Shown here in pieces: positions 40,537 through 60,490 of a DNA stretch of 64,000 bases. Source of the stretch: Clostridia bacterium. Its GTDB lineage: Bacteria > Bacillota > Clostridia > Oscillospirales > Acutalibacteraceae. The notes under the pieces were generated by a model. The model was not told where the DNA came from. It ran no database searches and saw nothing but the letters and a program-made list of their open reading frames with translations. Position numbers and translations under genes: made by a program. Each line of letters begins with the position of its first letter. Position 1 is the stretch's first letter. Location: assembly GCA_017416285.1 (NCBI GenBank), contig JAFQCU010000007.1:20163-84162 (forward strand), in the 5' to 3' direction.

Positions 40537-41946
40537 TTAGCTTTCATTAATAATATTCCGTATCCACATTCCGTTTTTGACCATGAAAAAGCCGATTACA
40601 CATTTAATAATATCCAGCGATTGAACTATTAAAAATAACGATAAAATGGGAAGGGTTGTGTATTTTGATAGTACGAATGCGAGCGGAACGACAATCACCC
40701 ATGAAAAGGCGCTGTCAAAAAGGAAGGTTATAAGTGTTCGTCCGCCCGAACGCAAGGTGAAGTAACAGTTATGCGCAAAGGCAAAAACGGGCATAAGTGC
40801 GGCCACCACCAACAAAAAGTGTGTTGCCATTTGCTTTACCACGGGCTCGGTTTTATAAATGTGGGGAATAATTGGTGCTAGACACGCCATAACACCGCCC
40901 ATTACTAAGCAACAACCGACCGATAGTGTCAAAAGCTGCCAAACCGATTGCTTTGCTTCTTTAATGCGGTTGGCACCCAAGTGTTGACCAACGATAATGG
41001 CAACAGCGTTTCCCATGGTAAGAAATACAACGTTAAACAGATTATTGACTGTGTTTGAAATATTAACGGCGGCTAAAACGTTTATACCCCTTACAGAGTA
41101 GCACTGAAGTAATACCGCCATACTTGACGACCAAAGGAATTCGTTTACCAAAAGGGGCATACCCTTTGTAATGATTTGTTTTGCCAAATTCCACGGGATA
41201 TACAGACTTTTGAATGCGCCGATGATAAATGGGTATTTTTGGTGTTTTAGTGTGGTGGCGATTATGATTATTGCCGCTTCTACAAAACGGGAAAGCACGG
41301 TTGCAATGGCGGCGCCCGCAACTTCAAGCCTTGGAAAACCAAATTTGCCGAAAATAAGTAAGTAGTTGAACACAAGGTTTACCATAATTGCTGATATGCT
41401 AGCAATCATAGGCAGCTTTGTTTCGCCGACTTCACGTAACGTGCTTGCGTAAACCTGCATTATAGCGAACGGCAAAAGACCAATAAGCATAATGTTTATA
41501 TAATCTACTGCATATTTTATGGTTGCGGCGGCATCCTCCGGCAAGGTGTCTTTTGCGATGTAGGTTTGTATTAAAGGCTCTTTAAACAGGACAAAAACAC
41601 CCAAAGCAATGGCAGTCATTAAAACCCCGACAATGGCTTTCATTCGCATACAGTGGCGAATACCGTTATTGTCATTAGCGCCGGCGTATTGTGTTGAAAA
41701 AATGCCCGCACCAGCCATTCCGCCAAAAATGCAAAGGTAGAAAATAAACATTAATTGGTTAACAATGGTAACAGCCGACATTTGCAGTGTTCCGACACGG
41801 CCAACCATTACGTTATCTAAAAGGCTGACAACATTTGTTATGGTGTTTTGGATTATCATTGGCACAACAATGGCGAATACTCTGCGGTAAAAATCCTTGG
41901 TGCCGATTAGATTAGATTTTAATTTCATTTTGTTTTTCACTTTCAT
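40537..41946 (-). CDS. MATE family efflux transporter
   Basis: A 469-residue twelve-segment exporter; its opening FYRRVFAIVVPMIIQNTITN and the pair LDNVMVGRVGTLQMSAVTI are typical of the MATE subgroup common in Clostridia. The second half has MPLLVNEFLWSSSMAVLLQC and GNAVAIIVGQHLGANR. Two ATGs are possible (41946 and 41928) and neither has a convincing ribosome site, so the start is uncertain. It is not closely similar to the MATE protein at 19.9 kb. Substrate unknown. Confidence 0.87.
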   Translation of the reverse strand: MKVKNKMKLKSNLIGTKDFYRRVFAIVVPMIIQNTITNVVSLLDNVMVGRVGTLQMSAVTIVNQLMFIFYLCIFGGMAGAGIFSTQYAGANDNNGIRHCMRMKAIVGVLMTAIALGVFVLFKEPLIQTYIAKDTLPEDAAATIKYAVDYINIMLIGLLPFAIMQVYASTLREVGETKLPMIASISAIMVNLVFNYLLIFGKFGFPRLEVAGAAIATVLSRFVEAAIIIIATTLKHQKYPFIIGAFKSLYIPWNLAKQIITKGMPLLVNEFLWSSSMAVLLQCYSVRGINVLAAVNISNTVNNLFNVVFLTMGNAVAIIVGQHLGANRIKEAKQSVWQLLTLSVGCCLVMGGVMACLAPIIPHIYKTEPVVKQMATHFLLVVAALMPVFAFAHNCYFTLRSGGRTLITFLFDSAFSWVIVVPLAFVLSKYTTLPILSLFLIVQSLDIIKCVIGFFMVKNGMWIRNIINES

Positions 41947-42024
41947 AAAAAAGGTGTCAAGCTAATATACCATAATATAAGCAAAAAGTAAACCAATAAA
42001 AACGAAAAAAATTTTTAAAAAGTG

Positions 42025-42053
42025 TTGACAACGGTTTTTCTGGGTGGTATAAT
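42025..42053 (+). promoter_or_regulatory. Sigma-A promoter of the first T-box gene
   Basis: A perfect TTGACA (42025-42030), a 17-base spacer and a perfect TATAAT (42048-42053): a strong constitutive promoter ahead of a leader that does the regulating. Confidence 0.85.
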
Positions 42054-42059
42054 AAGCAA

Positions 42060-42325
42060 AAATCGATAAAAGCTTTGACGAAGACGGTTTTAAATAACTG
42101 CTTTTAGAGAGTCGGCGGGTGGTGCAAGCCGATGGCAAGTGTTTATAAATACCCATCACTTCCGAGCTGAAGGGCTGAAACTTAATTGCGAGTAGGTCTT
42201 TCCGTGATTGCTGCGTAAAGGCATAAGGGTTGCTAGACCCTGAGTGGCAGTTTTACTGCAATTTGAGTGGTACCACGAGTGTAATTATAACACCCGTCTC
42301 AAAGTTTGAGACGGGTGTTTTTTAT
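42060..42325 (+). promoter_or_regulatory. T-box riboswitch, specifier read as AUC (isoleucine)
   Basis: A tRNA-sensing leader. Stem I has GACGAAGA at its foot, AGAGAGTCGGCGGGTGGTGC in its upper part, and a return strand ending ACTTCCGAGCTGAAGG. In the specifier loop the triplet before A-CTTCC-GAG is ATC, followed by a purine as usual. The T-box itself, TGAGTGGTACCACG, is at 42264-42277; its TGGT would pair with a tRNA end ACCA. A terminator (AACACCCGTCTCAAA with its complement, 42289-42319) and T run follow, so uncharged tRNA-Ile should allow readthrough. The T-box class is certain, the codon call likely. Confidence 0.93.
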
Positions 42326-42357
42326 TTTAAATTATTTTTTGGAAAGGGTGTTAAAAA

Positions 42358-44628
42358 ATGACAACCAATACTGCAAAACAACAACTTATGGAGATCGCTG
42401 CACGAATTAAGGAAATGCGTGAAATTATGGGCTGGTCTATTGCTGAAATGGCAGTTAAGACTGAAGTGAGTGAGCAGCAGTACATTAGCTATGAATCTGC
42501 AGAAGCAGATATTCCTTTTAGCTTTATTCATAAATGTGCGTTGGAATTCGGTGTTGAGCTTACCGAATTTTTGGAAGGTCATAACGCTGCCAGACTTTCG
42601 AGCTATACCGTTACACGTAAGGGCAAGGGACTTCAAACCGCTAAAGAAGACGGCATAGACATTAAAAATCTGGCCCCTAAATTCCGTGATAAAATTGCTG
42701 AACCCTATTGGGTAAGATACGAATATTCGGCTTCTCAACAAAATAAGCCTATACATCTTGCAACCCACTCCGGTCAAGAATTCGACCTTGTTATGAGTGG
42801 TACGCTTAAGGTGCAAATCGGTGACCACGTTGAAATACTTCACGAAGGCGACAGTATTTATTATAATTCTTCAACTCCGCACGGTATGATTGCTGTTGAT
42901 GGTAAGGACTGTGTGTTCTGTGCGGTTGTTTTACCGGGCGAGGACACTAAGGAAGAGGTTGTTCGCAAGAGCATTGCCTCCACCAAGAAGAGCGAAAAGC
43001 TTGTGTGTGAAAAGTTTGTTAAAACTGTTGAGGATGAAAACGGCGCTTTACAAAAAATCGACTTTAAAAATACCGAAACCTTTAATTTTGGTTTTGATAT
43101 TGTTGATGGCATTGCCAAAAAATATCCTGATAAGCTTGCAATGCTTCATCTTGATAAGAATAAGGTTGAACGCCGCTTCACATTTAATGATATTAAGCGT
43201 GCTTCAAATCAGGTTGCTAACTACTTTACATCACTGGGCATTAAAAAGGGCGACAAGGTTATGCTTGTGCTCAAAAGACATTATCAGTTCTGGTTCTGTA
43301 TGGTTGCGCTTCACAAATTGGGTGCGGTTGCAATTCCTGCAACAAATCAGCTTAAGGAACACGACTTTGAATATCGTTTTAATGCCGCAGGTGTAAAGGC
43401 ACTTGTTTGTACTGCTGATGGTGATACCGCCGAAATCGCAGAAGCTGCTGCTAAAAAATGTGACAGCGTAGAAAAGCTCATAATGGTTGGCGGCAATCGT
43501 GACGGCTGGCAGGATTTTGATAAGGAATATCCGCTTTTCAGCGCACATTATTATAGAGATGAGGACACCTCCTGTGGTGAGGATGCCGCCCTTATGTTCT
43601 TCACCTCCGGCACAACAGGTAACCCCAAAATGGCGGCACATAAGCACACCTATGCTTTAGGTCATTTTGTAACTGCTAAATATTGGCATTGCTGTGAACG
43701 TGATGGTTTGCATTTAACCATATCTGATACCGGCTGGGGTAAGTCGCTTTGGGGCAAGCTTTACGGTCAATGGCTCTGTGAAGGTGCAGTATTTGTTTAT
43801 GACTTTGACCGCTTTGACGCTGATGATATTTTGCCAATGTTCCAGAAGTATCAAATCACCACCTTCTGTGCGCCCCCCACAATGCTTCGTATGCTTATAA
43901 AGGGCGACCTTTCAAAATATGATTTATCTTCAATCAAACATATGACAACTGCGGGTGAAGCGCTCAACCCTGAGGTGTTCCGCCAGTTTGAACAGGCAAC
44001 CGGTCTTCAAATTATGGAAGGCTTCGGTCAAACCGAAACCACCCTTACAATCGCAAACCTTTGCGGCACTGTTCCTAAGGTTGGTGCAATGGGTAAGGCG
44101 TCGCCTCAGTATGACGTTGATATCGTTGACCCCGACGGCAACTCGGTTGCGACGGGTGAGGTTGGCGAAATTGTAATCCATACTAAGGATTCTGTTCCTT
44201 GCGGTCTTTTCAAGGAATATTACCTTGATAACGAAAAGACAAACGACGCTTGGTATGACGGTATGTACCATACGGGCGATACTGCTTGGCGTGATGAGGA
44301 TGGCTATTTCTGGTACGTTAGCCGTATTGATGACGTTATTAAGTCGTCGGGCTACCGCATTGGACCGTTCGAAATTGAAAGTGTTATTATGGAACTTCCG
44401 TATGTTTTGGAATGTGGCGTTTCTGCTGCTCCCGACGAAATCAGAGGTCAGGTTGTAAAGGCAAGCATCGTGCTTACAAAGGGTACTGAACCGACTGAAG
44501 AGCTCAAAAAGGAAATTCAGAATTACGTCAAGACACATACAGCGCCATATAAATATCCACGTGTGGTTGTTTTCCGTGATGAATTACCCAAGACCATAAG
44601 CGGAAAAATTCAACGTAATAAGCTTTAA
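42358..44628 (+). CDS. XRE-cupin-acyl-CoA synthetase fusion (copy 1, Ile T-box)
   Basis: A 756-residue three-part protein. Residues 11-73 are an XRE helix-turn-helix (MGWSIAEMAVKTEVSEQQYI). Residues 115-195 are a cupin (HSGQEFDLVMSGTLKVQIG, STPHGMIAV). From about 240 to the end is an AMP-forming acyl-CoA synthetase of the medium/short-chain type, with P-loop FFTSGTTGNPKMAAHKH (414-430), EGFGQTETT, YHTGDTAWRDEDG and the catalytic Lys in LPKTISGKIQRNKL. It should activate a branched short acid, by its T-box 2-methylbutyrate, as CoA thioester. The attached regulator part is unusual for this enzyme. Start: ATG at 42358 after GGAAAGGGTG. Confidence 0.88.
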   Translation: MTTNTAKQQLMEIAARIKEMREIMGWSIAEMAVKTEVSEQQYISYESAEADIPFSFIHKCALEFGVELTEFLEGHNAARLSSYTVTRKGKGLQTAKEDGIDIKNLAPKFRDKIAEPYWVRYEYSASQQNKPIHLATHSGQEFDLVMSGTLKVQIGDHVEILHEGDSIYYNSSTPHGMIAVDGKDCVFCAVVLPGEDTKEEVVRKSIASTKKSEKLVCEKFVKTVEDENGALQKIDFKNTETFNFGFDIVDGIAKKYPDKLAMLHLDKNKVERRFTFNDIKRASNQVANYFTSLGIKKGDKVMLVLKRHYQFWFCMVALHKLGAVAIPATNQLKEHDFEYRFNAAGVKALVCTADGDTAEIAEAAAKKCDSVEKLIMVGGNRDGWQDFDKEYPLFSAHYYRDEDTSCGEDAALMFFTSGTTGNPKMAAHKHTYALGHFVTAKYWHCCERDGLHLTISDTGWGKSLWGKLYGQWLCEGAVFVYDFDRFDADDILPMFQKYQITTFCAPPTMLRMLIKGDLSKYDLSSIKHMTTAGEALNPEVFRQFEQATGLQIMEGFGQTETTLTIANLCGTVPKVGAMGKASPQYDVDIVDPDGNSVATGEVGEIVIHTKDSVPCGLFKEYYLDNEKTNDAWYDGMYHTGDTAWRDEDGYFWYVSRIDDVIKSSGYRIGPFEIESVIMELPYVLECGVSAAPDEIRGQVVKASIVLTKGTEPTEELKKEIQNYVKTHTAPYKYPRVVVFRDELPKTISGKIQRNKL

Positions 44629-44643
44629 AAATATAATATTTAA

Positions 44644-44672
44644 TTGACAATTTTTTAAAGTTGTGATATACT
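44644..44672 (+). promoter_or_regulatory. Sigma-A promoter of the second T-box operon
   Basis: A perfect TTGACA (44644-44649), a 17-base spacer and TATACT (44667-44672). No terminator separates it from the upstream synthetase, so some transcripts may read through from copy 1. Confidence 0.8.
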
Positions 44673-44677
44673 TACTT

Positions 44678-44940
44678 AAAAGCGTTGACGAAGAGTGCGC
44701 AAAATAATACGTATTAGAGAAGTGACGGTTGGTGCAAGTCATTTATGTGTGTTTTGTGTTTGTAGCTTCTGAGCTGAAGGGAAGAAAGCGTAAAGCAAGT
44801 AGACCCCTTTCGTGATTGCTGCGTAAAGGCATAGGGATTGTTTGATCCCAAGAGTGGCAGTATTACTGCAATTTGAGTGGTACCGCGGGTATGAAATTTA
44901 TGCTCGTCTCAAAGTCATAACTTTGGGGCGAGTATTTTTG
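44678..44940 (+). promoter_or_regulatory. T-box riboswitch, specifier read as GUA (valine)
   Basis: Stem I again begins GACGAAGA and has AGAGAAGTGACGGTTGGTGC, with the return strand GCTTCTGAGCTGAAGG. Aligned with the first leader, the triplet before G-CTTCT-GAG is GTA. The T-box TGAGTGGTACCGCG lies at 44874-44887. The terminator stem (ATGCTCGTCTCAAAGT against ACTTTGGGGCGAGTAT, about 44900-44935, several G-T pairs) ends in a T run. It should turn on the whole operon when tRNA-Val is uncharged. Confidence 0.93.
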
Positions 44941-44967
44941 ATTTTTTCGCCCGAAACGGAGGAAATG

Positions 44968-47268
44968 ATGGAAAACATACAGGGACTTGATTCTAAAATC
45001 AAGGAAATAGCGGGTCGTATTAAAGAGCTGCGTGAAATTATGGGCCTAACGGTTCAGGAAATGGCTAAAAAAACAGCGGTAAGCGAGGAGGAATATCTCC
45101 TTTGTGAAAACGGTGAAAGTGATTTGCACTTTGCCTTTATTTACCGTTGCGCAAATGCTTTTAGTGTTGACGTTACCGATATTATTGAAGGCTATAGCCC
45201 ACGCCTTAAATCTTATACCGTTACCCGTAAGGGTGAGGGTCAGCGTATTGAAAAAGCGCACGGTATGACCTATTATAACTTGGCTTCCGCCTTTAAAAAC
45301 CGTATTGCTGAGCCGCTTTATGTTAAAAGCGTTTACAGCGAGGAAGCACAGAATAAACCCATTGAGGTTACTACACACGCCGGTCAGGAATGTGACCTGA
45401 TTATAACCGGTCACTTAAAGGTTCAGGTTGGCGAGCATGCCGAGGTTTTGGGTCCCGGCGACAGCATTTATTTTGATAGTAACACACCCCACGGTATGAT
45501 AGCTGTCGGCGGTGAGGATTGTACCTTTTATGCTATTGTTTTAAACCCCACAGGCGAGCCTATACCTGAATTAGCTGAAGACTATAAGCCTCTTCAGAGT
45601 GTTCCACTCACTAAACGTGAACGTAAGGATAAGAGCGAACGCATTTACAGCAAGTACATAGATATTGTTGAAAATGAAAACGGTACACCGACTTCCATTA
45701 CCTTTAAAAATACTGAAAAGTTCAACTTCGGTTTTGATTTGGTTGATGCCCTTGCTAAACGTGAGCCCGATAAGCTTGCACTTATGCATATTTCAAAGGA
45801 CGGCACCGAGCGTGCTTTAACCTTTAAGGATATTAAGAAGGAATCAAACCGCTGTGCAAACTACTTTAAGTCGCTTGGCATTAAAAAGGGCGACAGGGTA
45901 ATGCTTGTGCTTAAACGCCATTACCAGTTCTGGTTTGCAATGATCGGTCTTAATAAATTGGGTGCTATTGCTATTCCGGCAACCAATCAGTTACAGGAAC
46001 ACGATTTTGAATACCGCTTTAATTCAGCAGGTGTTAATACTATTATCTGTACTGCCGACGGCGAAACCGCATATCAGGCTGAATTAGCTGCCAAAAAGTG
46101 TGACTGCGTTAAAAATATGCTTATTGTTAACGGCACACGTGAAGGTTGGCGTGAATTTGACGAAGAGTATAAGCTTTTCTCAACCCACTTCCATCGTACT
46201 GATGACACTGCTTGCGGTGATGACCTTATGCTTATGTACTTTACTTCGGGTACAAGCGGTTATCCCAAAATTGCGGCTCATAACTATAAATACCCCTTGG
46301 GTCATTTCCACACTGCTAAATATTGGCACGACGTTGACCCCGAGGGTCTCCACTTTACCATTTCTGACACGGGTTGGGCAAAGGCAATGTGGGGCAAATT
46401 ATACGGTCAATGGCTCGCTGAAGCGGCAATCTTTGCTTACGACTTTGATCGCTTTGACGCAGCTGACATTTTGCCCATGTTCCAGAAGTATAAGATAACT
46501 ACCTTCTGTGCACCGCCTACAATGCTTCGTATGATGGTAAAGCAGGATATTTCAAAGTATGATTTATCATCTGTTAAGCACATGACCACGGCTGGTGAAG
46601 CATTAAACCCCGAGGTTTACCGCCAATTTGAAAAGGCGACCGGTCTTCAGATTCTTGAAGGCTTTGGTCAGACTGAAAGCACAATGATTATCGGTAACCT
46701 TGTTGGCGCACCTCATAAAATCGGTTCAATGGGTAAACCGGCACCGATTTATAATGTTTCTATCGTTGACCCTGACGGCAACCCTGTTGACGTTGGTGAA
46801 ACGGGCGAAATTGTTATTGATATTAGAAACGGTCGCCCTTGCGGTCTTGCTGTTGGTTACTATGGTGATGAGGAAAAGACCAAGGAAACCTGGTGCGAGG
46901 ATTATTACCACACAGGCGATACCGCTTGGCGTGATGAGGATGGCTTCTATTGGTACGTTGGTCGTATTGATGACGTTATTAAGTCGTCAGGCTACCGTAT
47001 TGGACCGTTCGAAATTGAAAGCGTTATTATGGAACTTCCATACGTTCTTGAGTGTGGTGTATCTGCCGCACCCGACGAGGTTCGTGGTCAGGTAGTTAAG
47101 GCAAGCATTGTGCTTGTAAACGGAACCGAGCCTACAGAAGAGCTTAAAAAAGAAATTCAAAATTACGTTAAGGAAAGAACCGCACCCTATAAATATCCAC
47201 GTATTGTGGTATTTAGGGATAGTTTGCCTAAAACTACCAGCGGTAAGATTCAAAGAAACAAACTATGA
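44968..47268 (+). CDS. XRE-cupin-acyl-CoA synthetase fusion (copy 2, Val T-box)
   Basis: A 766-residue paralogue of the upstream fusion with the same order: XRE helix-turn-helix (about 12-75: MGLTVQEMAKKTAVSEEEYL), cupin (about 115-200: HAGQECDLIITGHLKVQVG) and acyl-CoA synthetase (about 245-766; YFTSGTSGYPKIAAHNYK, EGFGQTEST, LPKTTSGKIQRNKL). Long stretches near the C-terminus are almost identical in DNA to copy 1, which points to duplication and later divergence of substrate. By its T-box it would favour isobutyrate. The ATG at 44968 is 5 bases after GGAGG; longer frames run through the T-box. Its stop overlaps the next gene by 4 bases. Confidence 0.88.
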   Translation: MENIQGLDSKIKEIAGRIKELREIMGLTVQEMAKKTAVSEEEYLLCENGESDLHFAFIYRCANAFSVDVTDIIEGYSPRLKSYTVTRKGEGQRIEKAHGMTYYNLASAFKNRIAEPLYVKSVYSEEAQNKPIEVTTHAGQECDLIITGHLKVQVGEHAEVLGPGDSIYFDSNTPHGMIAVGGEDCTFYAIVLNPTGEPIPELAEDYKPLQSVPLTKRERKDKSERIYSKYIDIVENENGTPTSITFKNTEKFNFGFDLVDALAKREPDKLALMHISKDGTERALTFKDIKKESNRCANYFKSLGIKKGDRVMLVLKRHYQFWFAMIGLNKLGAIAIPATNQLQEHDFEYRFNSAGVNTIICTADGETAYQAELAAKKCDCVKNMLIVNGTREGWREFDEEYKLFSTHFHRTDDTACGDDLMLMYFTSGTSGYPKIAAHNYKYPLGHFHTAKYWHDVDPEGLHFTISDTGWAKAMWGKLYGQWLAEAAIFAYDFDRFDAADILPMFQKYKITTFCAPPTMLRMMVKQDISKYDLSSVKHMTTAGEALNPEVYRQFEKATGLQILEGFGQTESTMIIGNLVGAPHKIGSMGKPAPIYNVSIVDPDGNPVDVGETGEIVIDIRNGRPCGLAVGYYGDEEKTKETWCEDYYHTGDTAWRDEDGFYWYVGRIDDVIKSSGYRIGPFEIESVIMELPYVLECGVSAAPDEVRGQVVKASIVLVNGTEPTEELKKEIQNYVKERTAPYKYPRIVVFRDSLPKTTSGKIQRNKL

Positions 47269-47927
47269 TTTATAAAAGAATAACCCTGCTTTGCGGTCAT
47301 TACGGTAGCGGCAAAACCAATGTTGCCGTTAATATGGCTTATGACCAAAAGGAAGCTTACAAAAAGGTTGCCATTGCCGATTTAGATATTGTAAACCCCT
47401 ATTTTCGCACTAAAGACAGCGCAAAGGATTTCGAGGATATGGGTATTGAACTTATCGCTTCGGAATATGCGGGCAGTAATGTTGACATCCCTGCCCTTCC
47501 TCAGCAAATTTATTCCATTTGCGACCAGAAGGATAAGCAGGCTATAATCGACGTCGGCGGTGATGACCGTGGTGCTTATGCGCTGGGCAGAATTGCCCCT
47601 AGCATTTTAGCGGAAAATAATTATGAAATGCTTTTTGTAATTAATTGCTTCCGCCCCTTGACCCGTGACGCTGAATCTACCATTGAGGTTATGCGCGAAA
47701 TCGAATATGCGGCAAAAATAAAATTTACCGCAATTGTTAATAATTCAAACTTGGGCGAAGAAACCACAAGGGAGGACGTTTTAAAATCACTGGCCTATGC
47801 TGAGGAAATTTCCCAAAAAACAGGGCTTCCAATTAAGTGCACTTCGGTGTATAATAAGCTTTATGACGATTTAAAAAACGAAATCCCGAATCTTTTTTCG
47901 CTGAAGCTTCAGGATAAAATCAATTAA
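47265..47927 (+). CDS. P-loop ATPase of the MinD/CobQ type
   Basis: A 220-residue nucleotide-binding protein. Walker A is GHYGSGKTNVAVN (11-23); the MinD-like second motif is VAIADLDIVNPYFRTKD; a Walker B-like IIDVGGDDRGAYALG follows. It lacks DNA- or membrane-binding tails. Proteins of this shape sit in clostridial operons for ferredoxin-dependent oxidoreductases and may help in cluster or cofactor insertion, but I know no proven role. Coupled with the synthetase (ATGA overlap) and followed 13 bases later by the ferredoxin gene. Confidence 0.75.
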   Translation: MIYKRITLLCGHYGSGKTNVAVNMAYDQKEAYKKVAIADLDIVNPYFRTKDSAKDFEDMGIELIASEYAGSNVDIPALPQQIYSICDQKDKQAIIDVGGDDRGAYALGRIAPSILAENNYEMLFVINCFRPLTRDAESTIEVMREIEYAAKIKFTAIVNNSNLGEETTREDVLKSLAYAEEISQKTGLPIKCTSVYNKLYDDLKNEIPNLFSLKLQDKIN

Positions 47928-47940
47928 AGGAGTGTCTAAT

Positions 47941-48147
47941 ATGGCTAAATTGACTTTTAAGACTGACAAGTGCAAGGGCTGCGGCTTATGCGTTGACGTA
48001 TGTCCCAAAAAGGTTTTAACACTTGCCACAGATAAAATTAACGCAAAGGGTCATCACCCCGTAGAAGCAGTAAACGAGGAAGCTTGTATTGCTTGCGCTT
48101 TCTGTGCTACAATGTGTCCCGATTGTATTATTAAGGTAGAAAGGTAG
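47941..48147 (+). CDS. vorD: 2x[4Fe-4S] ferredoxin subunit (delta) of a 2-oxoacid oxidoreductase
   Basis: A 68-residue ferredoxin with two cluster motifs: CKGCGLCVDVCP (C-x2-C-x2-C-x3-CP) and CIACAFCATMCP. In the VOR/KOR enzymes such a subunit carries electrons between the thiamine site and external ferredoxin. The ATG at 47941 follows AAAGGAG by 8 bases. The three catalytic subunit genes follow at once. Confidence 0.9.
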   Translation: MAKLTFKTDKCKGCGLCVDVCPKKVLTLATDKINAKGHHPVEAVNEEACIACAFCATMCPDCIIKVER

Positions 48148-48154
48148 TATAAAA

Positions 48155-49216
48155 ATGGCTGATAAGGTTTTAATGAAAGGTAACGAAGCTATTGCTGAAG
48201 CCGCTATTATTGCCGGTTGCCGTCATTACTTCGGTTATCCTATTACTCCCCAAACTGAAATTGCCGCTTATATGGCAAAAAGAATGCCTAAAATCGGTGG
48301 TTGCTTCTTACAGGCCGAAAGTGAAATTGCCGCTATCAATATGGTTTACGGCGTGGCTTCAACCGGTCTTCGTGTTATGACATCTTCATCCAGCCCCGGA
48401 ATTTCGCTTAAGGGCGAAGGTCTTTCTTACCTTGCAGGTGCTGATTTACCTTCTCTAGTTATTAACGTACAGCGTGGCGGCCCTGGTCTTGGTGGCATTC
48501 AGCCCTCACAGTCTGATTATTTTCAGGCAACAAAGGCGGGCGGTCATGGTGACTTCAGAATGCTCGTGTTAGCACCCTCTTCCGTTCAGGAAATGGCGGA
48601 TTTAACCGTTAAGGGCTTTGAGCTTGCTGATAAATACCGTATGACCTCTATGATTTTGGCTGACGGTACAATGGGTCAGATGATGGAACCTGTATCTCTT
48701 GAATATGATATTAAGCCTATGCCCGAAAAGCCTTGGGCAACAACAGGTACCAAAATGGAAAGAGAGCATAATATCGTAAACTCACTTTTCTTACAGCCTG
48801 ATGCGTTGGAAAAATCAAACCTTGAACGCTTTGAACGTTATAAGTACATTGAAGAAAACGAAGTTATGTATGAAGAATACATGATGGATGATGCTGAAAT
48901 TTGCATTGCCGCTTTCGGTATTGCGGCACGTGTTGCTAAAAACGCTATTGTTGAAGCAAGAAACAAGGGCATTAAGGTTGGTATGATTCGTCCTATCACA
49001 TTATGGCCATTCCCCACAAAGGCTTTTGAAGCTGCGGCTGAAAAGGCACATACATTTATCAGTGTTGAGCTTTCAATGGGTCAAATGCTTGAAGACGTTA
49101 AGCTTGCAACAAAATGCAAGGGCGAATATATGCTTTGCAGCCGTGTTGGTGGTATGATTCCGTCACCTGAAGAGGTATTGGCTGCTATTGAAAAGGCAAA
49201 CGGAGGTGCAAAATAA
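48155..49216 (+). CDS. vorB: 2-oxoacid:ferredoxin oxidoreductase, alpha subunit (VorB type)
   Basis: A 353-residue subunit. It starts VLMKGNEAIAEAAIIAGCRH and has YFGYPITPQTEIAAYMA, EIAAINMVYGVASTG and SSSPGISLKGEGLSYLAG, all typical of the pyrimidine-binding half of VorB/KorA proteins. With the other subunits it forms an enzyme that converts branched 2-oxoacids plus CoA to acyl-CoA, CO2 and reduced ferredoxin, or the reverse. It ends with a 1-base overlap with the beta gene. Confidence 0.93.
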   Translation: MADKVLMKGNEAIAEAAIIAGCRHYFGYPITPQTEIAAYMAKRMPKIGGCFLQAESEIAAINMVYGVASTGLRVMTSSSSPGISLKGEGLSYLAGADLPSLVINVQRGGPGLGGIQPSQSDYFQATKAGGHGDFRMLVLAPSSVQEMADLTVKGFELADKYRMTSMILADGTMGQMMEPVSLEYDIKPMPEKPWATTGTKMEREHNIVNSLFLQPDALEKSNLERFERYKYIEENEVMYEEYMMDDAEICIAAFGIAARVAKNAIVEARNKGIKVGMIRPITLWPFPTKAFEAAAEKAHTFISVELSMGQMLEDVKLATKCKGEYMLCSRVGGMIPSPEEVLAAIEKANGGAK

Positions 49217-49968
49217 TGGTAGTATTTGAAAAACCCCATGCTTTAACCGATGTTCCGCTTCATTACTGCCCCGGCTGCACCCACGGTATTGTTCACCGCT
49301 TGGTTGCCGAGGTTATTGATGAACTTGGTATCGAAGGCAAAACAATCGGTATTGCGCCGGTTGGTTGCTCGGTTATGGCTTATAACTATTTTAACTGTGA
49401 TATGATTGAAGCGGCTCACGGCCGTGCTCCTGCAGTTGCAACAGGCGTTAAGCGTGCTAACCCCGAAAACATTGTATTTACATATCAGGGCGACGGTGAC
49501 TTGGCATCTATCGGTATGGCTGAAACCGTTCACTCTGCCGCAAGAAACGAAAATATCACAATTATTTTCATTAATAACGCAATTTACGGTATGACCGGTG
49601 GTCAGATGGCTCCGACCTCACTTCCCGGTCAGATTACTCAAACCTCACCTTATGGTCGTGACACAAACCATTGCGGTTTCCCGATTAAGGTTTGCGAAAT
49701 GCTCGCACAGGTTGATGGCGCACAGTATCTTGAACGTGTTGCCGTTAATAATGTAAAGAACGTTAAAAATGCTAAAAAGGCAATTAAGAAGGCTTTCCAA
49801 AATCAGGTTGAGGGCAAGGGCTTCTCACTTGTTGAAGTTATTTCTACCTGTCCTACCAACTGGGGTCTTACACCTAAAAAGGCTCTCGAATGGGTAGATG
49901 AAAAGATGATTCCTTATTATCCTTTGGGCGTTTATAAGGACAACACCGCTGAAAAGGAGGCTGAATAA
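49216..49968 (+). CDS. vorA: 2-oxoacid:ferredoxin oxidoreductase, beta subunit (thiamine-binding)
   Basis: A 250-residue subunit. The thiamine-diphosphate motif is GDGDLASIGMAETVHSAARN ending in INN, and the cofactor-site stretches LHYCPGCTHGIVHRL, PVGCSVMAYNYF and GMTGGQMAPTSL are family hallmarks. The position of the active site identifies this as the partner of VorB. Direction of catalysis cannot be read from the protein; the T-box context argues for carboxylation. Confidence 0.93.
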   Translation: MVVFEKPHALTDVPLHYCPGCTHGIVHRLVAEVIDELGIEGKTIGIAPVGCSVMAYNYFNCDMIEAAHGRAPAVATGVKRANPENIVFTYQGDGDLASIGMAETVHSAARNENITIIFINNAIYGMTGGQMAPTSLPGQITQTSPYGRDTNHCGFPIKVCEMLAQVDGAQYLERVAVNNVKNVKNAKKAIKKAFQNQVEGKGFSLVEVISTCPTNWGLTPKKALEWVDEKMIPYYPLGVYKDNTAEKEAE

Positions 49969-49970
49969 TT

Positions 49971-50504
49971 ATGGCAACAACACAGTATTTATTCGCAGGC
50001 TTCGGCGGTCAGGGTATTTTGTTTTCGGGCAAGTTCTTGGCTTACAAGGGTCTTACCGAAGATAAGCAGGTAAGTTGGCTTCCGTCATACGGTCCCGAAA
50101 TGCGTGGCGGTACCGCAAGCTGCAGCGTTATTTTAAGCGATACCCCTGTCGGTTCACCTATCGTTTCTAAACCCGACGTTTTGGTTGCAATGAATTTGCC
50201 ATCACTCGATAAGTATGAGGACAGCGTGGTTTCAGGCGGTACAATCTTTGTGGATAGCGCTCTTATCGAACGCAAGGTAAAGCGAACAGACGTTAACGTT
50301 TATTATATTCCTGCAACTAAGCTTGCAAGTGATAACGGTATGCCAACTTTAGCTAATATGATTATTGTTGGTAAAATTCTTAAGGAGCTTGGCGGTTACA
50401 ATGAAGAAACCGTTAATGCAGCACTTAAGAAGGTTATTTCAGCAAAGCGTGCTGATATGTTAGAAACAAACTTAAAAGCTATGAACATTGGTGCAGAGAA
50501 TTAA
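49971..50504 (+). CDS. vorC: 2-oxoacid:ferredoxin oxidoreductase, gamma subunit
   Basis: A 177-residue subunit with FAGFGGQGILFSGKFLA at its start, SYGPEMRGGTASCSVILSD and NMIIVGKILKELGGYNEE, the standard gamma domain signature, which contacts CoA. It lies 2 bases after the beta gene and 12 bases before ilvE. Confidence 0.93.
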   Translation: MATTQYLFAGFGGQGILFSGKFLAYKGLTEDKQVSWLPSYGPEMRGGTASCSVILSDTPVGSPIVSKPDVLVAMNLPSLDKYEDSVVSGGTIFVDSALIERKVKRTDVNVYYIPATKLASDNGMPTLANMIIVGKILKELGGYNEETVNAALKKVISAKRADMLETNLKAMNIGAEN

Positions 50505-50516
50505 GGAGTGTTTATA

Positions 50517-51578
50517 ATGGAAATTAAAATCACTAAAGCTGCCGTTTTAAAGGAAAAACCCGACAGCAGTACATTGGGCTTCGGTAAAATCTTTACCGAC
50601 CATATGTTTATGATGGATTGGAACAGCGAAAAGGGCTGGTACAATGCCCGCATTGTTCCTTTTGGTAGAATTGATTTACATCCCGCTTCAACCGTTTTAC
50701 ATTACGGTAGCGAAATTTTTGAAGGCTTAAAGGCTTATCGCCGCAAGGATGGCAAGGTGCAAATGTTCCGCCCGATTGAGAACATTCGCCGTATGAACCG
50801 TTCGGCTGAACGTCTTTGCCTTCCCGAAATTCCCGAAGATTTAGCAATGCAGGTGTTAACCACCTTTGTTGAACTCGAACAGGACTGGACACCTTCGGCT
50901 GAAGGCACATCACTTTATCTTCGTCCCTTTATGTTCGGTAACGATGAATCTTTGGGTGTTCACGCAGTACATAACGCAACCTATGTTATTATTGCTTCTC
51001 CCGTTGGCAGTTACTATGCCGAGGGTATTAACCCTGTTAAAATTATGATTGAGGACCAGGATGTTCGTGCAGTTCGTGGCGGTACAGGTTATGCTAAATG
51101 CGGCGGCAACTACGCTGCTTCTAACCGTGCGGGCGAGCGTGCGGCACAACAAGGCTACAGTCAGGTATTATGGCTTGACGGTGTTGAAAGAAAGTATATT
51201 GAGGAAGTTGGCGCAATGAACGTTATGTTCAAAATCGGCGGCAAAATCGTTACACCTATGCTTTCAGGCTCAATCCTTCCCGGTATTACCCGTATGTCTT
51301 GCATTGCAGTGCTTAAGGACAAGGGCTTTGAGGTTGAAGAACGTCTTTTGAGCATTGACGAATTGGAAGCTGCTATGGAAAACGGCACCCTCGAGGAAGC
51401 TTGGGGCTGTGGTACTGCAGCGGTTGTTTCTCCTATCGGTGAGCTTTGCTACAAGGGTGTTAAATACCCCGTAAACAATGGCGAAATCGGCGAAGTTACC
51501 CAAATGCTTTACGACACCTTAACAGGTATTCAGTGGGGCAAAATCGAAGACAAATTCGGTTGGATTCAGGAAATCTAA
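50517..51578 (+). CDS. ilvE: Branched-chain amino acid aminotransferase
   Basis: A 353-residue fold-type IV PLP enzyme of the longer (eukaryote-like) BCAT form. LHYGSEIFEGLKAYRRKDG, LYLRPFMFGNDESLGV, the PLP-Lys region GTGYAKCGGNYAAS, EVGAMNVMFKIGG and LPGITRMSCIAV are diagnostic. It moves the amino group between glutamate and 2-oxoacids of Val, Ile and Leu. As last gene of the Val T-box operon it completes a path from branched acids to amino acids. The ATG at 50517 is 7 bases after AAGGAG. Confidence 0.95.
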   Translation: MEIKITKAAVLKEKPDSSTLGFGKIFTDHMFMMDWNSEKGWYNARIVPFGRIDLHPASTVLHYGSEIFEGLKAYRRKDGKVQMFRPIENIRRMNRSAERLCLPEIPEDLAMQVLTTFVELEQDWTPSAEGTSLYLRPFMFGNDESLGVHAVHNATYVIIASPVGSYYAEGINPVKIMIEDQDVRAVRGGTGYAKCGGNYAASNRAGERAAQQGYSQVLWLDGVERKYIEEVGAMNVMFKIGGKIVTPMLSGSILPGITRMSCIAVLKDKGFEVEERLLSIDELEAAMENGTLEEAWGCGTAAVVSPIGELCYKGVKYPVNNGEIGEVTQMLYDTLTGIQWGKIEDKFGWIQEI

Positions 51579-51583
51579 TAATT

Positions 51584-51614
51584 AAAAGCCGTCCAAAAGG
51601 ACGGCTTTTTTTAT
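51584..51614. terminator. Terminator of the ilvE operon, facing feoB
   Basis: An 11-bp perfect stem AAAAGCCGTCC (51584-51594) / GGACGGCTTTT (51599-51609) with an AAAA loop and T run, between convergent genes. Confidence 0.92.
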
Positions 51615-53446
51615 ACTATTAAACTGTAAATATAATTAAAAACTATACACAGCACAACCCCAAAACCCGTTGGCAATAAAATGGATAATAGCGTCCATTT
51701 TATGCTGGCGGTTTCTTTTTTTATGGTCAGCACCGTTGTTGAGCAGGGCCAATGGCAAAGGGTGAAAATAAGCATACTAATTGCGGTTTTAACCGTCCAA
51801 CCGTTTTCAATAAAGAGTGTTCGCATAAATGAAAGAGAAAATCCGTCCTCTAAAACACCTGTTTCCATATATGCCATAATAATTATAGGTATAACAATTT
51901 CATTGGCGGGAAAGCCTAGGATAAATGCAATCAAAATCACACCGTCAAGTCCTAAAAGCCGAGCAAAGGGGTCTAAAAAATCGGCACAATATGACAAAAG
52001 TGTAGCACCGCCGATTTGGGTGTTTGACATAATGTAAATTATAAGTCCTGCAGGGGCGGCGACTATGAGTGAACGCCCAAGCACAAACAAGGTTCTGTCA
52101 AAAATCGAACGCACTATAACCTTTAAAATTTGCGGTCGGCGGTAGGGTGGAAGCTCTAGTATGAAATTTGACGGCACACCCTTTAAAACGGTTTTCGACA
52201 ACAGCTTTGTGGCGAGAAAGGTCAGCAGTATTCCAATGGTTATAACAAGGGTTAAAATTATTGCCGACATAAATGAACCGCTTATTCCGCCACCTATTAA
52301 AAACATTGTTATGATGGCAATTATTGTGGGAAAACGACCATTGCAGGGCACAAATGCGTTGGTTAAAATTGCAAGCAAGCGTTCACGGGGTGAATCAATA
52401 ATTCTGCATCCTGTAACCCCTGCGGCGTTACAGCCAAAGCCCATACACATTGTAAGTGCCTGTTTTCCGCACGCACCGCAGTTTTTAAAGGGCTTATCAA
52501 GGTTAAAGGCTATGCGTGGCAAAAAGCCTAAATCTTCAAGCAAGGTGAAAAGCGGAAAGAAAATCGCCATTGGCGGCAGCATAACCGACACAATGAAGCT
52601 GACAGTTCTAAAAACACCTAAAATAAATGCATCGTGTATTATTTTTGGACAATTAACACTTAAAAGCAGAGAAGATAGCCAATTTTCAAGCCGTGAAAAA
52701 GCGGAAAACAGCATATCCGACGGATAGTTTGCGCCGCTTATGGTTATCCAGAATACAAGACACAAAAGTGCAAGCATTATTGGGTAGGCGAAAAATTTGC
52801 TTGTGATTATTTTATCAATTTTTAAATCACGTGCGCATAAGTTGTCTTTTTTATATGTAACAACCTCACGGCAAATTTGTTCGGCGGTTTTTACTGTAGA
52901 AAGCGCCGTTTCCTCATCGGTGCCAAAATCAAATTCAGTTCTTGGGCTTGAATTTAAAACCTCGTCAAGGGCACAAAGCAAATTTTTAACGGTTTTTTTG
53001 TTTCTGGCAGTTGTACCGATTACCTTTACGCCCAACCGCTGTTCTAGCAGTGCCAAATCAATTTTTATACCTTTCTTGTGTGCCTCGTCAAGCAGATTAA
53101 CACAAACTAAAACCCGCCGACTAACGTTAATTGTTTGCAAAGCAAGGGTTAAGTTGCGTGAAAGGGTGGTGGCATCACACACAACAATAACGGCATCGGG
53201 CTTTTGGTTTATGATATAATCCCTTGCTATTGTTTCTTCGGGGGAATGCGGCATAATCGAATATGTTCCCGGCAAGTCAATAAGGCGGTATTTGTGGCTG
53301 TCGGTTTTAAAAAAGCCTTGGGCTGAATCTACCGTTTTGCCCGTCCAGTTGCCGGTGTGCTGGTGCATACCTGTAAGAGCATTAAAAATGGTGCTTTTGC
53401 CAACGTTCGGGTTGCCTGCAAGTGCAATGGTGTAGGTGTTATCCAT
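51611..53446 (-). CDS. feoB: Ferrous iron transporter FeoB
   Basis: A 611-residue membrane GTPase for Fe2+ uptake. The N-terminal G domain has G1 GNPNVGKS (11-18), the switch Thr in HTGNWTGKTVD, G3 DLPGTYS, and G4 VNLLDEAHKKG. From about 215 follow the membrane helices with CGACGKQALTMCMGFGCNAAGVT, the conserved Cys-rich pore segment. It is at the short end of the family. Its ATG shares 1 base with the feoA stop. Confidence 0.95.
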   Translation of the reverse strand: MDNTYTIALAGNPNVGKSTIFNALTGMHQHTGNWTGKTVDSAQGFFKTDSHKYRLIDLPGTYSIMPHSPEETIARDYIINQKPDAVIVVCDATTLSRNLTLALQTINVSRRVLVCVNLLDEAHKKGIKIDLALLEQRLGVKVIGTTARNKKTVKNLLCALDEVLNSSPRTEFDFGTDEETALSTVKTAEQICREVVTYKKDNLCARDLKIDKIITSKFFAYPIMLALLCLVFWITISGANYPSDMLFSAFSRLENWLSSLLLSVNCPKIIHDAFILGVFRTVSFIVSVMLPPMAIFFPLFTLLEDLGFLPRIAFNLDKPFKNCGACGKQALTMCMGFGCNAAGVTGCRIIDSPRERLLAILTNAFVPCNGRFPTIIAIITMFLIGGGISGSFMSAIILTLVITIGILLTFLATKLLSKTVLKGVPSNFILELPPYRRPQILKVIVRSIFDRTLFVLGRSLIVAAPAGLIIYIMSNTQIGGATLLSYCADFLDPFARLLGLDGVILIAFILGFPANEIVIPIIIMAYMETGVLEDGFSLSFMRTLFIENGWTVKTAISMLIFTLCHWPCSTTVLTIKKETASIKWTLLSILLPTGFGVVLCIVFNYIYSLIV

Positions 53447-59095: not shown

Positions 59096-60490
59096 ATGAA
59101 AAAGATTTTATCACTTGTTATTTGTTTAATTTTAATGTGCAGTGTGGTTATTACCGCATCTGCCGCAAATGCTACCGCAACCTTAAGCGGTGTTCCGTCT
59201 GAAATTAAAAAGGACGCAACCGCTACTGTTACCGTTAATTTAAGCGGCACACCTACAATAAGCTCTGCCCTTGTTCAGATTGAGCTTGGCAGTGGACTTA
59301 CACTTGTTTCGGGTGAATGGAAAAAAGACGGTATTATGAAAGATTTTAACGCTACAACCGGCTACGGTGTTTTGGCACTTAATTCTGCGGGAACGTTTGA
59401 CGGTACGGTTTTTAGCTTTGTTATTAAGGGCAAAACCGTATCGGCTACCGCACAAAACGTAAAGGTTATAGTCACCTTTAAAAACGGCTCGGCAGAGGTT
59501 GGCACAGCAACAGCAACAAAAACTGTTAAGGTTGTTTGCGCAAGCCATAGCTTTGGCGCTTGGGCAAAGGTAGATAATTCTAACCATGCACGCACCTGCT
59601 CGGCTTGTGGCTATAAAGAAACTAAGGCACACACTTGGAACGGCGGCACGCAGACTAAAGCGCCCAACTGTAAGGATTATGGTACAAAGACCTTTACTTG
59701 TACAACCTGTAACGCAACCAAGATCGAGAATATTGCAAAGACAAATACTCATACATATGGCTCTTGGACGCAAACCAAAGCTCCAACCTGTACTGCAAAG
59801 GGTACCGAAACCCGTACATGCTCGGTATGCTCAAAAACCGAAACACGTGACGTGAAAGCTACGGGTCATACCTTGGGGGATTGGAAAACTACTAAGGAAG
59901 CAACCTGTACTGCAAAGGGAACCCAAACAAGGGCTTGTTCAAAATGTAGTTATAAAGAAACGAAAGATATTAAGGCACTCGGTCATAAGTTCTCGAACCC
60001 CACAGTAACCAAAGAGCCTACCTGTACCGAGAAGGGTGAGGAAAAGGGTGTTTGTACCCGTTGTGACAAGGAAACTACAAACGCTATTCCCGCAAAGGGC
60101 CACAAGGTTGAAAACTATACTGTAACAACTGCACCTACTTGCACCCAAAAAGGTGAGGAAGAGGGCACTTGCAAAACCTGTAACGAAAAGGTTAAGCGTG
60201 AGGTTGCAATGGTTGACCACACCTACGGTGAAGCGGTTGTAACAAAAGAAGCGACCGAAACCGAATCAGGCATAAGCACTAAAACCTGCACTGCTTGCGG
60301 TGATAAGGTGGAGGAAGAAATCCCCGCACTGGGAACAACAAACGATAATGACAATACCGATACCAACACCGATAACGGTGACAAAAATAATCAAGGCAAT
60401 GACATAATGATTTGGGTAGTTGCCGGCGTTTTGGTGGCGTCAATTATTGCTGTTGTAGTTATACTGATTATTAAAAAGAAAAACTCATAA
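59096..60490 (+). CDS. Membrane-anchored surface protein with cohesin-like domain and Cys repeats
   Basis: A 464-residue surface protein. Signal peptide (about 1-24), cohesin-like beta domain (about 26-142: ATATLSGVPSEIKKDATATV, SALVQIELGSGLTLVSGEW, GTFDGTVFSFVIKG), seven Cys-rich repeats of about 38 residues (150-410; pattern C-x3-G-x5-C-x2-C...GH, as in CTAKGTETRTCSVCSKTE), an Asn/Asp/Thr linker, one membrane helix (437-458) and the basic tail KKKNS. There is no LPxTG. A cohesin next to a dockerin-bearing gene, 12 bases apart, suggests that this protein anchors the CHAP protein at the cell surface. The cohesin call is by pattern, not by score. Confidence 0.75.
   Translation: MKKILSLVICLILMCSVVITASAANATATLSGVPSEIKKDATATVTVNLSGTPTISSALVQIELGSGLTLVSGEWKKDGIMKDFNATTGYGVLALNSAGTFDGTVFSFVIKGKTVSATAQNVKVIVTFKNGSAEVGTATATKTVKVVCASHSFGAWAKVDNSNHARTCSACGYKETKAHTWNGGTQTKAPNCKDYGTKTFTCTTCNATKIENIAKTNTHTYGSWTQTKAPTCTAKGTETRTCSVCSKTETRDVKATGHTLGDWKTTKEATCTAKGTQTRACSKCSYKETKDIKALGHKFSNPTVTKEPTCTEKGEEKGVCTRCDKETTNAIPAKGHKVENYTVTTAPTCTQKGEEEGTCKTCNEKVKREVAMVDHTYGEAVVTKEATETESGISTKTCTACGDKVEEEIPALGTTNDNDNTDTNTDNGDKNNQGNDIMIWVVAGVLVASIIAVVVILIIKKKNS

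Follow-up and report, generated by a model that had tools for sequence, protein, structure and literature searches.

A T-box-switched operon of herbivore-gut Clostridia as a candidate route from scavenged branched acids to isoleucine and valine

Branched-chain volatile fatty acids have reportedly been recognized as growth factors for ruminococci since the work of Allison in 1962. Which genes might turn such acids into amino acids is the question raised by a locus of a Clostridia bacterium from the family Acutalibacteraceae. We analyzed a stretch of 64,000 nucleotides, here called the window (GenBank assembly GCA_017416285.1, contig JAFQCU010000007.1, positions 20,163 to 84,162; G000:C37:20163-84162). 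The source is a metagenome-assembled genome (MAG) of 1.45 Mb in 37 contigs with a completeness of 85%. Between positions 42025 and 51612 it carries two units on the plus strand, in which T-box leaders precede genes for acyl-CoA synthetases, a VOR-type oxidoreductase and the aminotransferase IlvE. T-boxes switch genes on when their cognate tRNA is uncharged, and an original prediction, made from the sequence alone, had proposed that the locus runs from acid to acyl-CoA to 2-oxoacid to amino acid instead of degrading amino acids in a Stickland-like manner. Comparison with related genomes supports this direction, and we consider it very probable that the locus makes isoleucine and valine from scavenged branched acids under the control of demand-sensing T-boxes.

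The layout of the locus was confirmed where the original prediction had placed it. Unit 1 comprises a putative promoter-like site P1 (TTGACA-17-TATAAT, 42025..42053, 12 of 12 consensus matches), a T-box leader (42066..42304), an intrinsic-terminator-like hairpin (42289..42319, a stem of 14 pairs followed by a T run) and the synthetase gene acs1. Unit 2 starts with a putative promoter-like site P2 (TTGACA-17-TATACT, 44644..44672, 11 of 12 matches), a second leader (44676..44914) and its hairpin (44900..44935, 16 pairs, then a T run), followed by acs2, a P-loop NTPase gene, a gene for a 2x[4Fe-4S] protein, the genes of the VOR-type alpha, beta and gamma subunits, ilvE and a terminator-like hairpin that was spotted by eye (51588..51612). 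The very short junctions predicted for unit 2 are indeed present: acs2 and the NTPase gene overlap by 4 bases and alpha and beta by 1 base, while the gaps measure 4 bases (NTPase to Fe-S protein), 7 (Fe-S protein to alpha), 2 (beta to gamma) and 3 (gamma to ilvE). Both leaders match RF00230, with 95.1 and 94.1 bits, which exceeds the gathering score of 93 bits by only 1-2 bits. Both contain the T-box core GTGGTACC and T-tailed hairpins, and their fold z-scores are -3.40 and -3.36. Promoter-like sites are more frequent in 41940-45000 than in shuffled sequence (14 versus a mean of 6.4), and for terminator-like sites the numbers are 4 and 3.2. As the scan shows no terminator-like site in the stretch from acs1 to leader 2, transcripts of acs1 may read into that leader.

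The specifiers name the two amino acids in question. In leader 1 the alignment and the sequence place ATC at 42155-42157, above a GAAG/CTTC helix (ATC-A-CTTC), and in leader 2 the sequence reads GTA at 44762-44764 (GTA-G-CTTC), likewise directly above this helix; as RNA these are AUC for Ile and GUA for Val. The source genome holds four other T-boxes, one ahead of the asparaginyl-tRNA synthetase gene, one ahead of the threonyl-tRNA synthetase gene and two with Phe and Trp specifiers (read by eye, with genes named without a search).

Does the match between codon and synthetase hold in relatives? We collected loci from matching relatives and, by scanning named genomes, from the best 80 of at least 590 stretches that encode a relative. 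A herbivore host (goat, sheep, cattle, buffalo, yak, deer, reindeer or horse) appears in the record titles of 49 of these 80 stretches; most of the other titles give no host, and one carries the label Spirochaetales. The recurring gene order is T-box, acs1, T-box, acs2, the NTPase gene atp, the Fe-S protein gene fd, vorABC and ilvE. In some loci ilvE precedes atp, and in others (L069, L070) one T-box serves both synthetases. Specifiers were read by a script that accepts a leader only if it has the T-box core, an AGAG motif and, below the specifier, a 4-base helix paired throughout, and unique genes were counted in the window and in loci L041 and up, leaving out genes with less than 38% identity, a missing start or identical first 400 bases. 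The 102 acs1 genes yielded 82 readable leaders with 81 ATC and one CTC, and the 117 acs2 genes likewise 82, with 75 GTA, 5 GTC and two other readings. The latter (TCT in L075, GGT in L175) were taken as misreadings, as inspection of these leaders shows GTA. A further 25 leaders, unread by the script and including some of the gene leuX described below, were inspected by eye: Val codons stood in 14 of 14 acs2 leaders, ATC in 4 of 6 acs1 leaders (L089 and L140 ambiguous) and CTC in 4 of 5 leuX leaders (L201 ambiguous). GTG also occurs as an acs2 specifier (L172). No T-box core was found upstream of 18 acs2, 13 acs1 and 10 leuX genes, several of which are later genes of one unit, and the upstream sequence was too short for 3, 1 and 16 genes, respectively. 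Against Rfam, the loci of 12 relatives gave 8 T-box matches at or above 93 bits in 7 loci, and five loci (L055, L060, L068, L069, L070) had none at the gathering score. Specifiers for unrelated amino acids would speak against the proposed route; those of the window and of its relatives stay within the Ile and Val codons, with one believed exception in the strict reading, the CTC of L069. The third codon position varies within the Val and the Leu codons, which supports the reading frame of the specifiers. In a tree of 202 synthetases built by a quick method, one branch (SH-aLRT 98) parts 75 of 75 Ile-labelled from 77 of 77 Val-labelled rows; 49 rows are unlabelled and the lone Leu-labelled row falls on the Ile side. 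Thus, paralogue and codon have stayed together.

The genes behind the two leaders are acs1 (42358..44628, 756 aa) and acs2 (44968..47268, 766 aa), each encoding a helix-turn-helix (HTH) domain, a cupin domain and an AMP-forming acyl-CoA synthetase according to Pfam. The original prediction of two synthetase genes, each behind a T-box, was correct, and it overlooked the N-terminal HTH-cupin part of both. In acs1 the domains are HTH_19 (15-74), Cupin_2 (135-190), AMP-binding (253-622) and AMP-binding_C (672-750). The Pfam cut-offs are passed by HTH_19, HTH_3 and Cupin_2 of acs1 and by Cupin_2 of acs2, whose HTH_19 match of 25.1 bits lies under 30.2. All 14 aligned sequences, two of which are separate HTH-cupin genes, share the cupin residues H137, E141 and H175 (acs1 numbering). 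These two genes stand in other genera (L102:7157-9356 and L103:3920-6108), where an HTH-cupin gene adjoins an unfused acyl-CoA synthetase gene behind vorC. It appears that the fusion arose from adjacent genes, and the unfused pair is possibly the ancestral state. The HTH-cupin part had no match among PDB sequences at E 0.01. Its structure model has a mean pLDDT of 78.6 and a pTM of 0.53, which leaves the domain arrangement unsure. Foldseek places the HTH_3 regulator 1y9q first (E 2.9e-14), and since HppE epoxidase chains occupy ranks 2-17 a regulatory role of this part is not certain.

The Ile T-box upstream of acs1 points to 2-methylbutyrate as its substrate, and the Val T-box upstream of acs2 points to isobutyrate, making them predicted 2-methylbutyryl-CoA and isobutyryl-CoA synthetases. 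Might they mainly supply branched acyl-CoA primers for membrane fatty acids, with VOR and IlvE in a secondary role? The best NCBIfam name for both catalytic parts is MbcS, a family with such a lipid role, and isobutyrate supply raised iso-branched long-chain acids in a rumen Prevotella, according to the passages we draw on from PMC7709123. However, acs1 and acs2 score 444.7 and 438.4 bits, about half the MbcS cut-off of 850, and differ from MbcS in domain architecture. A lipid role would also leave unexplained the codon-matched T-boxes, the single unit with VOR and ilvE, and the absence of ilvC, ilvD and leuB described below. We rejected a pure lipid role, mainly for the low MbcS scores and the shared unit, and regard it as very unlikely; a double role in lipid and amino acid synthesis is possible.

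The remaining genes of unit 2 would complete a route to amino acids. The alpha subunit (48155..49216) belongs to the VorB family of NCBI (NF005507, 536.3 bits, cut-off 399), the beta (TPP) subunit (49216..49968) carries TPP_enzyme_C (7.3e-23) and the gamma subunit (49971..50504) a POR domain (9.7e-34). The 71-aa protein with two 4Fe-4S clusters (47932..48147; Fer4) has OGOR_delta as its best NCBIfam score (51.8 bits, cut-off 125) and is more likely the fourth VOR subunit, delta, than a free ferredoxin. On this point the original prediction, which had called it a ferredoxin, has to be revised, while the ATPase, the three VOR-type subunits and ilvE that it listed all stand. For beta, gamma and delta the Pfam domains were found and the best NCBIfam scores stay below the curated cut-offs, and hence we name the enzyme VOR-type. 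IlvE (50508..51578) is a branched-chain aminotransferase (NF009897, 480.2 bits, cut-off 307). The P-loop NTPase of the SIMIBI type (47265..47927, 220 aa) has weak CbiA, SRP54 and ParA matches under the Pfam cut-offs and no close solved relative among PDB sequences (best E 0.84); its model (pLDDT 89.2) resembles SRP and HypB GTPases most in Foldseek. It adjoins fd-vor in nearly all VOR loci fetched and was not seen in L111. Kept beside VOR in this way, it may serve in VOR maturation or activation, which is our guess. The operon is flanked on the opposite strand by genes for a FeoB-type iron transporter (51611-53446) and a MATE transporter (40537-41946), with no evident link. Elsewhere in the window, a 464-aa open frame without a Pfam match (59096-60490) lies upstream of the ribosomal protein S2 gene.

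In the proposed route each T-box would sense its own uncharged tRNA, Ile or Val. The Ile T-box would turn on acs1 to give 2-methylbutyryl-CoA, and the Val T-box would turn on acs2 to give isobutyryl-CoA together with the shared VOR and IlvE machinery. In the first step acid, ATP and CoA would yield acyl-CoA in an AMP-forming reaction; as AMP-forming synthetases spend ATP, this fits assimilation. VOR would then run in reverse, from acyl-CoA, CO2 and reduced low-potential ferredoxin to the 2-oxoacid, which IlvE would transaminate to the amino acid. The sequences themselves show the gene order, the identity of the T-boxes, their specifiers, the conservation of the locus and its anti-occurrence with the classical genes; from these we infer the direction of flux, the substrates of the synthetases and the action of the T-boxes in vivo. 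An activating enzyme placed behind a T-box for the product amino acid agrees with regulation by demand and not with degradation. In a Stickland-like reading, IlvE and an oxidative VOR would degrade valine and isoleucine and the synthetases would release the acids. VOR is reversible, and the portion of PMC13290082 at hand describes oxidative OFORs in gut acetogens, with VOR-type enzymes of these bacteria and of C. sporogenes being catabolic; it adds that VOR-like enzymes may favour aromatic 2-oxoacids, and the word T-box is absent from it. However, the Ile and Val T-boxes turn the genes on when those amino acids are scarce, AMP-forming synthetases are a poor fit to energy-conserving acid release, and most carriers have no ilvC, ilvD or leuB, which would leave uptake as their source of valine and isoleucine. 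On the T-box logic and the missing genes we rejected the catabolic reading, which appears highly improbable.

How do organisms with this operon stand with respect to the classical pathway? The original prediction had pointed to a possible absence of ilvC and ilvD. Neither gene was found in the window MAG, at its completeness of 85%, nor in 41 of the 42 genomes of the genus (its own included) that carry the fused synthetase. We sampled 80 genomes, 49 of the genus (again with its own) and 31 others of the order; ilvC and ilvD exceed their cut-offs in the same 20 of them and leuB in 24. The 49 genus genomes divide into 41 with the fused synthetase only, 6 with ilvC/D only, one with both (G009) and one with neither (G017, 79% complete), giving p=3.4e-6, a value that, like all p-values here, overstates independence, the genomes being related. 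Outside the genus the counts are 10, 12, 1 and 8 (p=0.0084), and for all 80 genomes 51, 18, 2 and 9 (p=1.9e-9). Within the genus, leuB is present in exactly the seven genomes that have ilvC/D. A further 125 genomes of the order gave 36 with the fused synthetase only, 50 with ilvC only, 7 with both and 32 with neither (p=1.5e-6), or 36, 49, 8 and 32 (p=5.0e-6) if G136 is counted, whose copy is cut by a contig end. Only the first 6 candidates per genome were scored in this set, and only the first 2 in a sample of the phylum, so that carriers may be missed; six of the 398 phylum genomes match at 1e-240. Two of the six belong to the order, the window genome being one of them, and four do not, one of these four having a copy split by stops. 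Within the order the fused synthetase is thus far more frequent than across the phylum as a whole, yet it also occurs outside the order. That incomplete MAGs merely feign the absence of ilvC, ilvD and leuB, the operon only supplementing the normal pathway by scavenging, could draw on the 85% completeness of the window MAG and on two genomes with both gene sets, but we rejected it as quite improbable, because the 28 genus genomes of at least 90% completeness still show 24 with the fused synthetase only, 3 with ilvC/D only, 1 with both and 0 with neither (p=0.0012). In most carriers the module seems to stand in place of ilvC/ilvD and leuB, as judged by this anti-occurrence.

Many relatives carry a third arm that the original prediction overlooked. 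Here a Leu T-box (CTC or CTG) stands ahead of leuX and a gene fusing a TIM barrel (AP_endonuc_2) to an AMP-forming acyl-CoA synthetase. This arm may follow ilvE, diverge from acs1 or lie at another place in the genome (examples are L147:16115-20019, L232 and L233). The script read 21 leuX leaders from 52 genes, 15 with CTC and 6 with CTG, and in the close relatives G016 and G027 both genes lie behind T-boxes of 122.2 and 112.5 bits. LeuX has HMGL-like and LeuA_dimer domains, and at 280.4 bits the best score of the full-length protein (P0009) stays below the 532 bits required for a 2-isopropylmalate synthase. In an alignment with six canonical LeuA proteins, the ERA of GxGERAGN is absent in 49 of 49 sequences, while the RD of RDGEQ and both His of HxH are kept in 0 of 49 (one His in 2). 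We also considered that a Leu T-box before leuA marks the normal route from ketoisovalerate to leucine, and dropped this, as leuB is missing in the same genomes and the LeuA-like protein is without the catalytic motifs. The TIM-synthetase has matches in 60 of the 80 genomes, 53 of which extend into the TIM part, contig-truncated ones included. Over all 80 genomes, full-length TIM-synthetase and leuB also tend to exclude each other (50 TIM only, 21 leuB only, 3 both, 6 neither; p=4.3e-11). In relatives the Leu T-box would thus command the LeuA-like protein and the TIM-synthetase, isovalerate being activated and passed to the same VOR and IlvE. There would then be one switch for each of three synthetases, the arrangement to be expected if their substrates are 2-methylbutyrate, isobutyrate and isovalerate. 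Near the operon of one relative lies an 883-aa open frame without a Pfam match (L147:468-3116, minus strand).

Besides the relatedness of the genomes and the oxidative VORs of gut acetogens, several observations weigh against the proposed route. VOR and ilvE sit behind the Val T-box only, so it is not obvious that a shortage of isoleucine by itself would raise them. In L069 (G029) the one T-box that precedes acs1-acs2 reads CTC for Leu and that of its near relative L070 reads ATC, apparently a one-base switch of the specifier where one leader serves the unit. G009 (L057, L234) and G062 (L080) carry the fused synthetase together with ilvC/D; they are either true double carriers or contaminated MAGs. 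With these two and the 7 genomes with both genes among the further 125, of which another 32 hold neither, the exchange of module for classical genes is not absolute. In 5 of the 80 genomes ilvC/D are found alongside VOR alpha (P0005). The synthetase part of the Leu arm belongs to an AMP-ligase subfamily other than that of acs1 and acs2 (best NCBIfam score 678.6 bits, cut-off 832), and its assignment to isovalerate comes from the T-box alone. The window genome has no Leu arm (no match to P0010, only a 24-bit match to P0009), which may reflect the incompleteness of the genome.

It is tempting to go one step further, to a regulon of three codons and three acids, although we hold it to be rather doubtful. 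Ile, Val and Leu T-boxes would each command a synthetase with its own sensor or extra domain. Here, acs1 and acs2 would be trigger enzymes whose HTH-cupin part senses acid or acyl-CoA and adjusts transcription or activity, and LeuX would be an isopropylmalate-synthase pseudoenzyme that senses leucine via LeuA_dimer. If so, the same protein and leader would read both acid supply and amino acid demand. Independent of this regulon, the locus is a candidate gene set, in Clostridia of the herbivore gut, for the long-known branched-acid requirement of rumen bacteria. Since a T-box names its amino acid, it allows a substrate to be predicted for every synthetase paralogue not yet characterised, and the operon may serve as a genomic marker of bacteria that possibly depend on branched acids cross-fed by other microbes. 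Pathway tools keyed to ilvC, ilvD and leuB would probably label the carriers auxotrophs.

How does the locus compare with known systems? T-box riboswitches (RF00230) stand on the ilv/leu operons of Firmicutes, with the same RNA class and antitermination layout as in the window; in G009 and G021 the leaders of the classical ilv/leu loci read ATC and CTC (L234, L235). In contrast, the window T-boxes lie upstream of genes for acyl-CoA synthetases and VOR, and each synthetase paralogue has a codon of its own. The closest solved relative of the synthetase part is 3etc, which we take to be a Methanosarcina acyl-CoA synthetase preferring 2-methylbutyrate; it matches acs2 with 605.7 bits (3etc_A, residues 248-764), beginning after the HTH-cupin part. 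HTH and cupin are shared with XRE-cupin transcription factors, but are fused here to a synthetase. The proposed chemistry is that of the known conversion of branched acids via 2-oxoacids to amino acids. The excerpt used of PMC7356843 names isobutyrate and 2-methylbutyrate as precursors of valine and isoleucine and lets 3-methylbutyrate enter leucine, and that of PMC2812497 gives 2-methylbutyrate to isoleucine as a probable route in Methanobrevibacter ruminantium. In like portions, PMC7476758 lists the reductive carboxylation of propionyl-CoA and refers to Monticello 1984 for isoleucine from alpha-methylbutyrate, and PMC7709123 stated in 2020 that the conversion of branched acids to branched amino acids "was not proven yet". 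These passages tie no genes to the route in rumen bacteria, whereas the present locus is a defined operon whose switches are specific for amino acids. Among the listed titles and abstract starts of the open-licence literature, with older and subscription work lying outside, we found no report of T-box control of branched-acid activation or of an HTH-cupin/acyl-CoA synthetase fusion. Known RNA switches and known chemistry thus meet in a combination that we did not find reported, and the fusions and the third arm are added to what was originally predicted. The chemistry is classical; the genes, their codon-matched control and the fusions look new.

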